Source: a virus
DNA: 44,703 nucleotides
IMG/VR virus record: IMGVR_UViG_3300021075_000323
Span: 1-44,703 of that record
Reading direction: 5' to 3' (one strand)
Under the pieces are notes generated by a model, which ran no database searches, was not told the origin of the DNA, and worked only from the letters and a program-made list of their open reading frames with translations. Positions 1 to 10,208 of this stretch are shown here, piece by piece. Position 1 is the first letter of the stretch, and each line of letters opens with the position of its first letter. The position numbers were made by a program, and so were the translations under genes.

Positions 1-1326
1 ACCAGGCTGACAACCAAAGGTCGGGCACCCACACTCGTCCATTCCAGTGACAACGGCGACGGTTCCCGGAGGACAGGCTGGACCGGGTTTGCACGGCGGG
101 CAATCGGGGCCGCATACGATGACGAAACAGCCATTGGCATCGACAAACTGCTTGATGGGAATCTGGCCCGGTGGGCAGGCAACCGGATCACCGCAAAGCG
201 TCGGCTGACATTCGAAGGTTGGGCAGCCATTGGCATCCACTCCAGTTTGCACGAGATTGAAATTCGGCCCGCAGTCCGGCGGATCGGCGCATGGCTTGTC
301 ATCCGGCCTGCATCCCCAAATCGCGCACCCGGCATTGTCATAGCCCGTGACGATGGTGGTGAATCCAGGTGGGCACGCAATCGGGTCGCCACAAAAGATC
401 GGTTGGCAGACGTAGATGGGGCATCCGTTGGCATCCACTCCGTTAGTAGCAAGTTTGGCATCCGGGCCACAATTCGGCGGCGGTGGACATGGCGGCTTGT
501 CGGGCTTGCACTCGAAGAGGGAGCAACCTTGGTCGTCCGTGCCGACGATAAACGAAATTTGACCGGGAGGACAGTTGGGAGGATCGTCGCAGAACGTGGG
601 TTGGCAAACATAGGTCAGACATCCCCTTGCATCACGTCCACCGATGGCGAGTTTTGTGTTGGGTCCGCAAACTGGCGGATCGCCGCACGGCTGACGGTCA
701 TCCCGGGCGCAATTCCAAATCGCGCATCCAAGATCATTGTAACCGCCGATGCGAAGAGTCATTCCTGGCGGGCACAAGGGAGGGTCTGCACAAAACTTTG
801 GCTGGCAGAGATAGATGCGGCAACCGCACGAATCATACCCTCCGGTCGCGAGCTTGAAGTTCGGGCCGCAGTAGGGTGGTGGTTGGCACGGCCCGCTGCA
901 ATTCGGTGGTGGATCGTCAAGCACAGGGGGCACGTCAGGACATCCTGTGCCTCCCGCACCGGGCACAGTGGGGTCGGTGTATGGCTCGTCGTCCACCGCT
1001 CCCGGATACCAGAGCTTCCCCTGCTGGTCAGGTGCCGGGGTGGCTGAGCAACTAGGAGTAAAAACCGTCCAGTCGTCGGCATAGAACTCATCGACGCCGA
1101 AGTCTGTATTGCGGACGACACGGGTGACCGGGCCAATGAAGTAGTCATCGCCGCGATCGTAGAAGGTGAGATGAAACAGCCCGCTATGGAAGATGATCCA
1201 GCGCATGGAGGTTGCTGGATTGAATGGACGTGTGACGCCATTCGACCAACCCGCACGCCGCACCGCCCAGCCACGGCGGGCATACTCGGCGGCCAAAGGC
1301 CAGATCATGCCGTGTCCGATGCTCAT
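1..1326 (-). CDS. Cys-rich repeat protein with Tad2-like N-terminus (partial)
   Basis: The frame is open from an ATG at 1326 to the left window edge (442 codons), so its C-terminus is missing. The ATG overlaps the stop of the upstream gene as ATGA. Residues 1-90 are about half identical to the neighbouring gene (GWAVRRAGW, then TDF and DDW) and match the Tad2-like/DUF2829 pattern. A Pro-rich linker follows. From about residue 150 there are 66-67-residue repeats, each made of two Cys-rich half-units (CGPN or CPPG, GxDxxGC, CQPxxC, DPP), more than four in view. The spacing of Cys pairs and the DANGCP motif recall small disulfide domains such as antistasin-like repeats, which is resemblance only. 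It ends a tail operon, so a tail-tip or fibre-associated role is inferred. Confidence 0.75.
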   Translation of the reverse strand, partial: MSIGHGMIWPLAAEYARRGWAVRRAGWSNGVTRPFNPATSMRWIIFHSGLFHLTFYDRGDDYFIGPVTRVVRNTDFGVDEFYADDWTVFTPSCSATPAPDQQGKLWYPGAVDDEPYTDPTVPGAGGTGCPDVPPVLDDPPPNCSGPCQPPPYCGPNFKLATGGYDSCGCRIYLCQPKFCADPPLCPPGMTLRIGGYNDLGCAIWNCARDDRQPCGDPPVCGPNTKLAIGGRDARGCLTYVCQPTFCDDPPNCPPGQISFIVGTDDQGCSLFECKPDKPPCPPPPNCGPDAKLATNGVDANGCPIYVCQPIFCGDPIACPPGFTTIVTGYDNAGCAIWGCRPDDKPCADPPDCGPNFNLVQTGVDANGCPTFECQPTLCGDPVACPPGQIPIKQFVDANGCFVIVCGPDCPPCKPGPACPPGTVAVVTGMDECGCPTFGCQPG

Positions 1327-1772
1327 GGTGATTGTGCGGGTGGTGCGACAAATCGGATCGAGTCGTAGAGCGGCACAATCGGGCAGCTGCCATACTTCGA
1401 GTTCGGGTTACGCGCATCGACGAAAGGACTCACGCTAATCGGGCGCGGGTAGCGCTTCTTGCCCTGCTGGAGGAGATCGGAGTCCGTAATGTTCACCCCG
1501 TCGAAACAGGTCGGCGAAAGCACAGTCCAGTCCTCGGCATAGAAGTCCTCGACCATGAAATCCGTGTTACGGATTACGCGGGTGGCTTTGGCTCCGGTGA
1601 CGGGGGTGCGGTAGAGCAGCCAGAAAAGCGCGTTTTGATACACCACCCAGCGCAAGGCACGCCCGGTGTCGCCGAACAGTTCAAGGTCATCCCATCCGGC
1701 ACGTCGCACCGCCCACCCGAGACGGGCGTATTCGGCGGCCAAGGGCCAGATCATGCCGGAGCCGTAGGTCAT
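1323..1772 (-). CDS. Tad2-like (DUF2829-type) domain protein
   Basis: A 149-residue protein. The start at 1772 is chosen because it forms an ATGA overlap with the upstream stop; a longer in-frame start adds only Arg/Pro-rich shadow sequence. Residues 8-88 carry the GxxVxRxGW motif (GWAVRRAGW, 19-27) and a terminal DFYAEDW (76-82), the two hallmarks I associate with the Thoeris anti-defence 2-like domain. Free-standing Tad2 proteins bind the Thoeris signal molecule, but the domain also occurs in tail-region proteins. The 60-residue C-terminal tail is unrecognised. The next gene is a paralogue. Whether this is an anti-defence protein or a structural one cannot be decided here. Confidence 0.6.
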   Translation of the reverse strand: MTYGSGMIWPLAAEYARLGWAVRRAGWDDLELFGDTGRALRWVVYQNALFWLLYRTPVTGAKATRVIRNTDFMVEDFYAEDWTVLSPTCFDGVNITDSDLLQQGKKRYPRPISVSPFVDARNPNSKYGSCPIVPLYDSIRFVAPPAQSP

Positions 1773-2527: not shown

Positions 2528-4879
2528 TTATTGGATGGTTGCTTTGCCGAGACTTTCTGGTTCTTCGCCGGTGAGGGTTGCCTTGAGGCCGTTGAACGCG
2601 ACGAGTCCGCGCGGATCGGTCTGGTTGTCGCCGGTGTCGAAGCGGATGAGCCGCCCCCGGACGATGAAGTTGGCGGTGGTCAGCGCGGTGGTGGTGGCTT
2701 CCGTGGCTCCGTAGATCACGCGGTCAACGACGCAGGTATCGACCGCATCGACGATCTTGCGGACCACGCGCAGCCCAAAGCCGTGGGAGGACGGGATGCT
2801 CGTGAGCATGAAGCTGTGATCGAGAGAAGGCGGCAGGAACGTGACATCCGCGATGTTGCTGGGGTTTGCTGGGTTGCCAGACGGCAGGCCGATGTCGATG
2901 GCTACGCCCCAATGCACCAGGGTGTTCGAGTTGAAGACGGCGGCGACGAATGAGAAGTCGAGCGAGAGCCGCTTGCCGAGCCGCAGTTGCTTGCCGTTGA
3001 CGTGGATGCGGAACAGCTCGCGGGAAAAGTCGGATGGATAGAACACCTTTTCGCCCGCGATGACTTGCTCCACCTGGTAGAACCCGCGCCCGTCCCATGC
3101 GAAGAATCCCGGTGCGCTGAGCTTGGTCGAGCGGCGGCCGAGATAGCCGGGAATCACCAGTGGCGCGGTGGTGTTGGTGTAACGATAGATCACGCCGCTT
3201 GCCGGTGAGGTTGGAAGTTGGGTCACTGTGGTAAAGACCAGCGGATCGACATACACGGCTGGCAAGAGTCCACCAACACGAGGGAGGTCGGCGGTTTTGA
3301 TCGAGGGCACGTCCTCCGCTTCTATCTTCTGGCGCGTCGGAAAGACTTCGAAGAGTTCCGGCAGTTCCCACGCGGCGATCACGGTTTGCGTGGATGCACT
3401 TACGGATGGATTCGATGTTGGGATGAAGGTTTCAAGCACTTCAACGCGTTCGCCCAAGTCATCGAGGATCAGTTGCAGCCCTTCGATTTGCGGGATCGTG
3501 TGGCCGTGTGTTTGGAAGACAGAAACCGGACCTGCCGTGGAAATGGTGATGACATAGCCGTTCAGCGCTGGGGAATCCTCGAAGGCAATGCTCAGATCGT
3601 CCTCGCCGTCGAAGGTCACGGCCAGCGGTTCCACGACGGCAAACTGGCCGCCATTTTCCCGCACCGTCACGTGCAAGTCGCGGGTGCCGAGGTTGTGGCT
3701 GATCGTGAAGTCCGAGTTTTCACCGTCACCGATGGGCGCAACGTAGTGCTGCGACCCGGTGATGATCTGGTCGGGCGTGAACGGCACATAGGTTCTGCCG
3801 TAGGGCGGGCGCAACCAGTCGATGTTGGCGGCGGTTTCCAGTCCCTCCCAGTTGAGTTCGCGGATCAACAAGATCGGTGCGCGGAACGGGGTGAGCGTGT
3901 AAGACTTCGTCGGATCGTTTTCGTCGCGGAAAGTGACTTCGATTTCCAACTCTGGCTTTAACTCTGCTGCGCCGCGAAGTGCTGCGGCAATTTCTGCCGT
4001 GTTCAGATCGAGGATGATGGTCGGATCACCGGGCGGCGCGGAAAACACGGCGACTTCGATCAGCTCCTGGTCAATGCCGGCCATCGAGCCGTTGAAGGTG
4101 ATGTGGGCGATGTTGGTCGCTGGGTTGGTGACAGAGAACGATCCTTCATCGTCTGCCAGCGAGGAAAGTGCGTCCTGAATTTCATCCGGTCCATCGTCCG
4201 CCGATAGTTCGCGGGTTTTCTTGTATCCACGGCGCAACTGGTAGGTTCCTTTGAACGTTGGCTGAATCTTGAGCGCCTGGATTTCTGGCCAGATTGTGGT
4301 GGCCGATGATCCGCCTGCTTGCACCTCGCTTACGGTTGGGGCTGGCGGCACGATCAATTCAAAGCTCGCGGTCGATGCCAGTGGTGCCTGCACGAGCCGG
4401 ACCTCGTGGCGGTACTGCCCCGCTATCTCCGTTGATCGCACCCGCACGAAAGAGACGGGTCGCAATTCGGATAACAGACCAACGGCAGAGTGTCCGGACA
4501 GCGAGATTTCCTGCGCGCCAGTGGAAATGATCCAAGAGCCATCCTGCTTGCTCACCACTGCGTCATCCAATCCGATGGCGGCAAGAGCTGCTTGCACAGC
4601 GCCCGCCGTGGCATCGTGGGGAATCGGTGCGGTGTTTTGACCGTCCACTCGCAGCACAAAAAAGCCAGTCGTCGGGCGGGCATCGACAAATCCAATGGAG
4701 GCGCGGATGTGCGTCACAATCCTCTGCACCTCGATGGGCGAACCTTCGATCGATTCCGCGAAGCGCAGTCCGATGCGCACCTTGTCGCCCTGGACGAACG
4801 CAGGGAACGAAATCGCGCTGCCGCCAAGCGTCGTGGTCAGCCTGCGAGTGGTGAGATTAGCGTAAACGGTGGCCTGCAT
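2528..4879 (-). CDS. Large phage tail fibre/tail-tip protein
   Basis: A 783-residue protein rich in short beta-strand-like segments. Around residues 405-425 it has the HNLGT-type stretch found in phage fibre and receptor-binding modules (DFTISHNLGTRDLHVTV), followed by a GHTIPQIEGLQ segment, a short coiled-coil-like helix and a C-terminal domain of unknown type. It is the largest protein of the distal tail operon. The function is inferred from fibre-like composition and position after the tail-tip genes. A TTGACG sits 31 nt upstream of the ATG, farther than at the other motif-bearing starts. The plus-strand cassette immediately upstream breaks the operon here, so this gene may need its own start of transcription. 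Confidence 0.65.
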   Translation of the reverse strand: MQATVYANLTTRRLTTTLGGSAISFPAFVQGDKVRIGLRFAESIEGSPIEVQRIVTHIRASIGFVDARPTTGFFVLRVDGQNTAPIPHDATAGAVQAALAAIGLDDAVVSKQDGSWIISTGAQEISLSGHSAVGLLSELRPVSFVRVRSTEIAGQYRHEVRLVQAPLASTASFELIVPPAPTVSEVQAGGSSATTIWPEIQALKIQPTFKGTYQLRRGYKKTRELSADDGPDEIQDALSSLADDEGSFSVTNPATNIAHITFNGSMAGIDQELIEVAVFSAPPGDPTIILDLNTAEIAAALRGAAELKPELEIEVTFRDENDPTKSYTLTPFRAPILLIRELNWEGLETAANIDWLRPPYGRTYVPFTPDQIITGSQHYVAPIGDGENSDFTISHNLGTRDLHVTVRENGGQFAVVEPLAVTFDGEDDLSIAFEDSPALNGYVITISTAGPVSVFQTHGHTIPQIEGLQLILDDLGERVEVLETFIPTSNPSVSASTQTVIAAWELPELFEVFPTRQKIEAEDVPSIKTADLPRVGGLLPAVYVDPLVFTTVTQLPTSPASGVIYRYTNTTAPLVIPGYLGRRSTKLSAPGFFAWDGRGFYQVEQVIAGEKVFYPSDFSRELFRIHVNGKQLRLGKRLSLDFSFVAAVFNSNTLVHWGVAIDIGLPSGNPANPSNIADVTFLPPSLDHSFMLTSIPSSHGFGLRVVRKIVDAVDTCVVDRVIYGATEATTTALTTANFIVRGRLIRFDTGDNQTDPRGLVAFNGLKATLTGEEPESLGKATIQ

Positions 4880-4954: not shown

Positions 4955-5227
4955 ATGAAAAAGCGCGAAATCCTCTCAGTCCCAGATGGCGTAGCAGCTT
5001 GGTTGAAACCGCTCGACATCCCCGCGAATGCGCTTTATGGTTTTAGCATGATTCCGAAAAACAACCGCAAGGTCACTGCGGAAGAAATGCTAGAACAATG
5101 TCGCCGCAACCGCCAGGAAGCCCGGATTCTGGAAAACCGGGATCGCACTTACGAAATCGAACCCCTTCCGTTAGACTTGCGGATTTCCGCTCCCGTCTTG
5201 ATACCCGCCAAGTCGAAGGCGAGCTAG
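4955..5227 (+). CDS. Small protein preceding kinase-like gene
   Basis: A 90-residue protein starting MKKREILSVPDGVAAW, on the opposite strand to the tail genes. It is basic and helical in its middle (AEEMLEQCRRNRQEARILE). I do not recognise a family. Its 3' end overlaps the next plus-strand gene by 130 nt in another frame, so the two form a translationally coupled pair, or one start is mis-set. A GTG at 4940 in the same frame is an alternative start. A TTGGCG, one base off the phage's start-proximal TTGAC motif, lies 22 nt upstream of the ATG. With its partner it looks like an inserted accessory cassette (moron). Confidence 0.5.
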   Translation: MKKREILSVPDGVAAWLKPLDIPANALYGFSMIPKNNRKVTAEEMLEQCRRNRQEARILENRDRTYEIEPLPLDLRISAPVLIPAKSKAS

Positions 5228-5805
5228 ACGCGATCTTCCGGGAAAGTCCGGAGTTCGGACGCAATCTGGCGCACAGGCTCTCGCCGTTTTTAGAAATCTA
5301 CGAATCGGGCGCTCTCACATTGATCGGAGCTGGTGGCGAGGCGGCGGTGTTTGGTGACCCTGCGAACCAACAGGTCATTAAACTTTGTGGCCCGCCCGCA
5401 CGATGCCATTTCGGCTGGGTGATCCGACGCGCTCCGAGCGGGATTCTGACTCTCGCCCCCGGTGACCTCGATGAGATTCTCGACCGACTTTCTCTTTTTG
5501 AGGCTCTTTTTCCTTCAGGAATCTCCATCGACTGCATCGGAGAAAATGACGCGTTTCTTGCCTTCCGTCAGCCCTTCATCGTCGGTCGCCATCCCACCGT
5601 TGCCGAACTCAGTGACTACATGCAATCCCTCGGCTGGATTCCCCATCGGGAACCATGTAGCGGAGAAACCCTCGAACTGCTCACCTGGAAAAAAGACTCC
5701 TTTCTTGCCACTGATGTCCGGCCGGAAAATGCGCTTGTCGCCGAGGCAACAGGAATGATCCATCCCATCGACTTCATCGTCGCCGGCCGCGAGATCGCCC
5801 CATAG
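5098..5805 (+). CDS. Polyvalent-protein-kinase-like domain protein
   Basis: A 235-residue protein. The recognisable part starts near residue 60: a glycine-rich loop-like LIGAGGEAAVFGDP followed by VIKLCG (candidate ATP-binding Lys), and near the C-terminus DVRPENALV (catalytic-loop-like D-x3-EN) and GMIHPIDFIVA (DFG-like Asp). This order matches the compact kinase domains found in phage polyvalent proteins. The target is unknown. No other in-frame ATG, GTG or TTG start is evident between 5098 and the end of the overlapping small gene. As a plus-strand insertion in a minus-strand tail operon it is a good lysogenic-conversion or anti-host candidate. Confidence 0.6.
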   Translation: MSPQPPGSPDSGKPGSHLRNRTPSVRLADFRSRLDTRQVEGELDAIFRESPEFGRNLAHRLSPFLEIYESGALTLIGAGGEAAVFGDPANQQVIKLCGPPARCHFGWVIRRAPSGILTLAPGDLDEILDRLSLFEALFPSGISIDCIGENDAFLAFRQPFIVGRHPTVAELSDYMQSLGWIPHREPCSGETLELLTWKKDSFLATDVRPENALVAEATGMIHPIDFIVAGREIAP

Positions 5806-8516: not shown

Positions 8517-10208
8517 TTACGCGAAAACCGCCTCCCCCGGTGTCGTGGTGGTGGTGCCTTTGCCTTTGGTATTGTCTTGAATCTTCTTGAGTAGGTCGGT
8601 CTGCCGCTTGTTTTCCTCAAGGAGCCCGGCATTCGCGCTGCGGCCGAAAAGCATGTTCATGGATTGCGCAAAGGAACCGAGCTGACCTGATCCGCCCGCG
8701 ATGACTACCGGAGCCGTCGGCTTTTCTTCCGCTGCCGCCATTCCGATTTGCTTGCCCGCCTTGGCTGGTGGAATGGCCGCTTTGATGCGCTGCACGGTTT
8801 CGCCGAACTCGCGCTTCATGCCGGACGTGTCGATAGCTACCGCCGTGTTGGCGAATGTCTCGCTGAATCGGGTCTTCACGTTCTCCCCGGCCTCGGCCAG
8901 GCGTTGGGCGATCTTCTGGGCGGCAGGCTCCAACAGATCACCCGCCTTCGAGAATCGCGCCGCCGCATCTTCGTCGAGGATCGCCGCGCTTTCTCGGATC
9001 GTTTTCTGGATGCCATCAAGCGCGGCATCCTTGCCGAAGATTTCAAGCAGCGGACGGGCGACCTCGATGATCTCCGCGAAACCCTTCTGCAAGAAGCTGA
9101 TGGCTGATAGAAAAATCCCGATGATGGCATTGCCCATTCCGCTCCAGAACTCGGGCGTGGTTAGGACTTGGAAGAAGGTGACCGCCGTTTTGAAATACTC
9201 GACGATGTATTGGCCGGCGGCGGCGATGGTCGCTCGCAGGGTGGCCCACAGGAAATTCACGCTCTGTGCGAACGCCAGCTTGAGCGATGACCAGACGAGG
9301 TTGAGTGCCTCGCCGCTGCGGAAGATCGCCACGAGAAACTGTCCGGCTTCCGCCAGCTTAGGCTTGGCCATTTCCACAAATTCAAGGAACTGCGGAGTGA
9401 TGGATGCGAGGGCGGAGGCAAGCGGTTTGCCCACTTCCTCGAAGCCCTGATTCAGCGCGGCCTTGATCTGAACTGACGCGTCCGCAGTTGCCGCTGCTGT
9501 GCCGCCGACCTGCTTTTCAATGGCGGCGAGAACCAACGCCTGTGCCTCGTGCATCCGGTTGGATTCGGCCAGAGTCTTGATCTTTGCCTTCTCATCTTCG
9601 GTGAAGGTGATCCCCGAGCGCCGCAACGCCGCGAGCCCATTGACCGGATCGTTGAGTGCCTTGCCGAGCTGGACGGCGTTCTGTTCGGCAGCACCGAAAC
9701 CAGCTGCTGCCATGTCCACGGCCGCTTGGGTGGCCCGATCAAAATTGCCGCCAAGCTCGTCGGCGGTGTTGGCGAGTTCCTTGAAGGTGAGCAGCTTCGC
9801 CTGGGTCATTTGAATCGCATTGCCATCCACTCCGGTTTGCAACTCGATCTTGTCCGCGAGGTTGTTGAGTCGCTCGGCCACCGCGTCGGATTGGTCGCCG
9901 AACAGGCCCATCGACTTTGCGATGTTGCGGACGCGGGCGTCGGCAGAGTTCGCTGCCTCACCCGACAAGATCAGCTTGTAGGTCAACGCGCCAATTGCAG
10001 CGCCTGCGGCGGCCACAGCGGCGGCTACAACCGCAGTTCCCTTTGCCACGAATTTCATGGCGCTGCCCATCGATGTGATACCCTTGGAAGCGCCCGACGA
10101 CATGGTGGACATCGAGTTTTTCAACGCGCCGGTTGATGCCTTCGCTCCCTTCAACGCGGACTGGAATCCAGCCGTGTTGAGTGTCAGCAGTGCGGTGAGC
10201 TTGGCCAT
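8517..10208 (-). CDS. Tail tape measure protein
   Basis: A 563-residue protein with tape-measure features: an N-terminal MAKLTALLTLNTAGFQSALK segment, Ser/Gly/Ala-rich helices, a hydrophobic Ala-rich segment (about residues 52-80), long helical repeats, a second hydrophobic stretch near 310-380, and a helical C-terminus. It sets tail length and is ejected during infection. At 563 residues it is short, predicting a short tail. It follows the chaperone pair, as in lambda order. The start is supported by TTGACA 22 nt upstream of the ATG; the TGA inside that motif is the stop of the preceding gene. Confidence 0.8.
   Translation of the reverse strand: MAKLTALLTLNTAGFQSALKGAKASTGALKNSMSTMSSGASKGITSMGSAMKFVAKGTAVVAAAVAAAGAAIGALTYKLILSGEAANSADARVRNIAKSMGLFGDQSDAVAERLNNLADKIELQTGVDGNAIQMTQAKLLTFKELANTADELGGNFDRATQAAVDMAAAGFGAAEQNAVQLGKALNDPVNGLAALRRSGITFTEDEKAKIKTLAESNRMHEAQALVLAAIEKQVGGTAAATADASVQIKAALNQGFEEVGKPLASALASITPQFLEFVEMAKPKLAEAGQFLVAIFRSGEALNLVWSSLKLAFAQSVNFLWATLRATIAAAGQYIVEYFKTAVTFFQVLTTPEFWSGMGNAIIGIFLSAISFLQKGFAEIIEVARPLLEIFGKDAALDGIQKTIRESAAILDEDAAARFSKAGDLLEPAAQKIAQRLAEAGENVKTRFSETFANTAVAIDTSGMKREFGETVQRIKAAIPPAKAGKQIGMAAAEEKPTAPVVIAGGSGQLGSFAQSMNMLFGRSANAGLLEENKRQTDLLKKIQDNTKGKGTTTTTPGEAVFA

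Follow-up and report, generated by a model that had tools for sequence, protein, structure and literature searches.

A Tad2-like Domain as the Probable Virion-side Anchor of a Modular Tail Protein in Phages of Verrucomicrobiota

The window analyzed here, a complete IMG/VR record of 44,703 bases, encodes two adjacent tail-region proteins, A and B, which share an N-terminal domain that is very likely a remote relative of Tad2 (Thoeris anti-defence 2, PF11195/DUF2829; SPO1 gp34.65, PDB 8sme/8wje). The best explanation, to which a probability of roughly 0.8 is given, is that a lineage of Verrucomicrobiota phages took over a Tad2-fold domain to anchor a receptor-binding tail protein on the virion. 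A structural role in the tail, which the initial annotation of this DNA had left open beside an anti-defence one, is thus the favored reading, and the Tad2 fold would thereby acquire a second, apparently structural role.

Tail Cassette and Likely Host

The minus strand of the window carries a standard tailed-phage gene set including a GpA-type terminase, a lambda-type portal, an S49 head protease, and a tape measure protein (Table 1). Past the tape measure gene, the order comprises genes for proteins of 243, 226, 350, and 783 aa, followed by the 249-aa He_PIG protein, A, and B. The genes of A and B overlap each other as ATGA, as do those of the He_PIG protein and A, so the three are probably translated together. 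The location in a tail operon that had first been assigned to the two genes is borne out by the tape measure gene in the same row and by the conservation of the cassette in related loci. A 235-aa ORF is embedded among the tail genes on the opposite strand (5098-5805, plus); it gave no match in Pfam or PHROG and might be an addition to the tail region.

Table 1. Positions of the tail-cassette genes and of the domains of A and B in the window
Feature	Position (nt)	Strand	Basis
Tail tape measure protein	8517..10208	-	phrog_27166, E = 3.4e-19; gene row common to A and B
783-aa tail-cassette protein	2528..4879	-	conserved upstream neighbour (synteny); weak PHROG matches to virion proteins
He_PIG (putative Ig domain) tail-cassette protein, 249 aa	1769..2518	-	PF05345, E = 3.7e-8 (Pfam); ATGA overlap with A
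Protein A, 149 aa, ATG at 1772	1323..1772	-	ORF; Tad2-like domain and C-terminal tail
Tad2-like domain of A, residues 1-88	1509-1772	-	alignment with 28 relatives
Protein B, 442 codons, running off the window edge without a stop	1..1326	-	ORF open at the edge; complete homologues exist
Tad2-like N-terminal domain of B, residues 1-90	1057..1326	-	51% identity to the A domain; joint Tad2 alignment
Nine Cys-rich half-repeats of B	1..888, start approximate	-	motif count

Searches by tblastn with the tail proteins of the window showed that 37 of 40 loci have the He_PIG and 783-aa proteins upstream of the domain. Two of the remaining three (L057 and L058) start too near the domain, leaving L062 as the sole real exception. 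In three loci (L080, L082, and L086), the domain is likewise borne by two adjacent genes. Related loci are carried by Akkermansiaceae and other Verrucomicrobiota genomes, which makes these bacteria the likely host group of the window phage. The tail type was found in 16 of 387 genomes of the order Verrucomicrobiales, a count that includes genomes already known as carriers, and canonical Tad2 in 9 of 388 sampled genomes of the phylum. No relative was detected in 50,697 records of described phages searched with A, two of its relatives, and the He_PIG neighbour, and the lineage bearing the tail-type domain is therefore unrepresented among the described phages searched. One 178-kb contig of an Akkermansiaceae MAG (JAGYIT010000014.1) contains two tail cassettes near its opposite ends and on opposite strands (L028 and L029); in the second copy, B is disrupted by frame changes that reflect either decay or an assembly error.

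Both ORFs were confirmed as the adjacent proteins with a common N-terminal domain that had been described initially, sharing 51% identity over their first 90 residues. The similarity continues to about residue 115 (C...QQGK..YP), that is, into the start of the C-terminal tail of A. B is indeed cut by the window edge, and ORF calling lists both A and B once open ends are permitted. The B gene is real, considering that complete homologues are present in 14 related loci. The Cys-rich repeats of about 66 residues reported for one of the proteins were recovered in B as 4.5 units with a period of 32 + 34 residues, corresponding to nine half-repeats of 32-35 residues each with the pattern C-x5-C-x15-GC-x4-C. 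An antistasin-like character of these repeats, suggested by eye, was without Pfam profile support and was set aside. The full-length A and B proteins gave no usable match in Pfam or PHROG scans.

Kinship with Tad2

The match to Tad2/DUF2829 proposed in the initial annotation was upheld as remote homology and a shared predicted fold, but not at the curated cut-off of PF11195, where A reaches 11.5 of the 25 bits required in an alignment covering positions 6-72 of the 73 in the model. PF11195 matches were obtained for 10 of 22 close relatives, with a best E of 0.11. A profile of the domain retrieved more distant relatives from Verrucomicrobiales genomes and from viral contigs, and in these broader sets PF11195 matched 13 of 17 (best E = 7.4e-4) and 5 of 9 sequences (best E = 8.3e-4), respectively. 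Scored with a Tad2 HMM, 24 of 28 domain sequences exceeded the 99% quantile of 5,600 shuffled sequences and nine exceeded their maximum, indicating a resemblance beyond chance; with the reverse model, most Tad2 sequences also scored above shuffles. Comparison with Tad2 by hhalign gave 30% for the close set, with the N-terminal motif alone aligned, and 76%, then 93% with a compact distant set, the aligned region being the N-terminal part; a global alignment to Tad2 spanned the whole domain at 80%. The PF11195 search of the window's own record returned no match, and PDB sequence searches with the domain and with its profile found nothing. Five members also matched PF07221 (GlcNAc 2-epimerase) with E down to 0.03, a candidate that was dropped because it was absent from the matches of the broader sets.

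Structure prediction, named as a check in the initial annotation, pointed in the same direction. An AlphaFold model of the A domain built with 28 diverse aligned sequences reached a pLDDT of 76.5 and a pTM of 0.68, and Foldseek returned SPO1 Tad2 as its best match among 350,542 PDB chains (prob 1.00, E = 0.012, a modest TM of 0.52), followed by a second-best match at E = 0.3. The best BFVD matches include proteins named Tad2-like. An earlier model whose alignment was limited to close relatives reached a pLDDT of 49, yielded meaningless Foldseek matches, and was discarded. In the retained model, β2 (41-46) and β3 (49-55) form a direct hairpin with no helix between them, and by this prediction the α2 helix of the Tad2 dimer is missing from the tail-type domain.

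Taken together, the profile, shuffle, hhalign, and fold results make the remote kinship with Tad2/PF11195 very likely, with no single test overwhelming. A convergent or accidental resemblance, in which a small α-β domain simply carries a GxxVRRxGW motif, would agree with the direct Pfam match of A and B lying far under the cut-off and with the close-relative model finding no Tad2. It is nonetheless improbable, since the distant relatives, the shuffle tests in both directions, the fold search, and the residues that are invariant at either end of the domain all concur. The tail types group in a single clade (support 0.98) apart from Tad2 proteins, free-standing ones of Verrucomicrobiota included; the 36-residue fragment VT_L093, which also lands in this clade, was mis-extracted and is to be disregarded.

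Retained Scaffold and Lost Ligand-loop Motifs

Based on the joint alignment (SPO1 numbering), every one of the 38 tail-type sequences has G17, R22, W25, A82, D84, and W85, and A10 is found in 37. By contrast, N26 occurs in none of the 38 tail types versus 12 of 13 Tad2 proteins, Asn not being among the residues found there, and W73 in none versus 13 of 13. The N26-G27-K28 (WNGK) motif and the PSQ after W73 (WxPSQ) are not kept in the tail types. The gcADPR pocket of Tad2 is lined by the loops β1-β2 and β3-β4, strand β4, the loop β4-α3, and helix α3, and Tad2 dimerizes via α2 and β2 (PMC12043709). Pocket residues were assigned from this review description and from family conservation rather than from coordinates, and by our own mapping N26-K28 falls in the β1-β2 loop and W73-Q77 in the β4-α3 loop; the alignment of the loops is uncertain, and the absence of the motifs is independent of it. 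Because the scaffold residues are invariant and the loop motifs are gone, we infer constraint on the scaffold but none on the known Tad2 pocket.

This pattern bears directly on the anti-Thoeris function, delivered by the tail, that the initial annotation had considered conceivable. In such a scenario, A and B would be working Tad2-type sponges in the virion, released on entry to sequester the signals of Thoeris or CBASS, as the fold and remote homology common with Tad2 and the two copies per phage might suggest. The ligand-pocket residues on which that proposal hung did not turn up, the Tad2-conserved loop motifs being gone from the tail types while the scaffold is invariant; the dimer helix is absent from the model, and B is long, rich in cysteines and linkers, and fibre-like, with exchangeable tips. 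A retained sponge function is therefore highly improbable. Neither the Tad2 fold nor a weak Tad2 profile match is evidence of anti-Thoeris activity, because the scaffold residues can persist after the pocket has gone.

Modular Layout of B and Exchange of Its Tip

The complete B homologues from 14 related loci (L001-L011 and L030-L032) are 515-668 aa long with 5-10 half-repeats. They consist of the Tad2-like domain, the short stretch shared with A, the Cys half-repeats, a poly-Gly/poly-Pro linker (up to 44 and up to 28 residues, respectively), a domain of about 104 residues, and a tip. Overall, the number of half-repeats varies from 0 to 10; at most one was counted in L026, L077, and L028, and the one in L028 may belong to its tip, which makes the repeats an optional element. 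The parts of B past the N-terminal domain have no confident Pfam or PHROG family.

Pairwise identities of the modules differ sharply. L005 and L006 share 96% identity in the N-terminal domain and 95% in the 104-residue domain versus 29% in the tip, and the converse is seen for L008 and L032, with 69%, 74%, and 86%, respectively. Judged by these identities, the tip is swapped between phages as a unit. In L006, L008, L009, and L010, the entire tip is replaced, and many tips among L001-L011 carry a GCTNPYAANYDP...DDGSC motif. The fibre tip of L085 (about residues 337-357) matched the chitin-binding family CBM_14 with E = 7.8e-4, below Pfam's cut-off, a hint that the tips may bind glycans.

A further alternative gives the Tad2-like domain itself a pocket that binds a small molecule or glycan with new specificity and contributes to host recognition on the tail. 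The conserved aromatic/Arg framework and the tail position would suit this idea, but no ligand is known, the invariant residues are those common with the Tad2 scaffold, and diversification sits at the opposite end of the protein, in the tip, so this assignment is improbable. Similarly improbable is the proposal that the tail-borne Tad2 fold still binds, in a remodelled pocket, a ligand resembling a nucleotide or a sugar, or that the sponge arose from such a virion domain. If there were such a pocket, one fold would recognize the host from the particle in these phages and counter immunity in others.

Proposed Role at the Tail Tip

The preferred reading, in which the Tad2-fold domain anchors a receptor-binding protein, starts from what was observed or computed, namely the homology and the predicted fold, the vanished pocket motifs, the synteny with the tail cassette, and the modular exchange of tips; what each part of B does is read from its layout. 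In B, the Tad2-fold module would form the N-terminus of a tail fibre, or of a receptor-binding protein at the tail tip, and would lie toward the virion. Its anchoring role is suggested by analogy with the general layout of tail fibres, the module itself matching no known anchor. The Cys repeats, variable in number and presumably disulphide-bonded, could act as a spacer or binding stalk, behind which the flexible poly-Gly/poly-Pro linker and the conserved 104-residue domain would follow. The swapped C-terminal tip probably contacts the host surface as the receptor-binding part, with its exchange likely driven by selection. A, the shorter paralogue, in which only a short tail follows the domain, is probably a partner or adaptor beside B at the tail tip, and both proteins would be carried in the virion. 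The cysteines of B make sense for a protein working outside the cell.

Relation to Known Systems

Tad2 sponges are small tetramers that act inside the infected cell, and B does not resemble them. The likeness of the tail types to Tad2 lies in remote homology, predicted fold, and scaffold residues; Tad2 is free-standing with about 90 aa, unlike B, and the tail types differ further in the missing ligand-loop motifs and α2, in their place among tail genes, and in their separate clade. AcrIIA7 and other PF11195-type PDB proteins (8kbi and 9kzr) illustrate that the Tad2 family includes proteins named for other functions. These are short, unlike B, and 8kbi retains the WNGK and SQTD motifs.

Modular tail fibres and receptor-binding proteins resemble B in having a conserved N-terminal part, a low-complexity linker, and a swapped C-terminal tip, as well as in being encoded downstream of the tape measure gene, although B has no detectable sequence match to any described fibre family. 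To our knowledge, a Tad2-fold N-terminal domain occurs in no described tail fibre. The B homologues are named here as candidate receptor-binding proteins of Akkermansiaceae phages, and the tail types provide material for asking in which direction recruitment ran, from virion parts to immune sponges or the other way round.

PF11195 domains were also noted elsewhere. In Bacteroides phage BS-TP2 (L045:2794-3291) and in L098, a canonical PF11195 domain is fused behind a YIGTK...SWSPK.VFE..Y domain, and the fusion gene of BS-TP2 sits among head-tail joining genes. In the N4-like Escherichia phage PhAPEC5 (L041:2749-3237), a DUF2829 gene adjoins the virion RNA polymerase gene.
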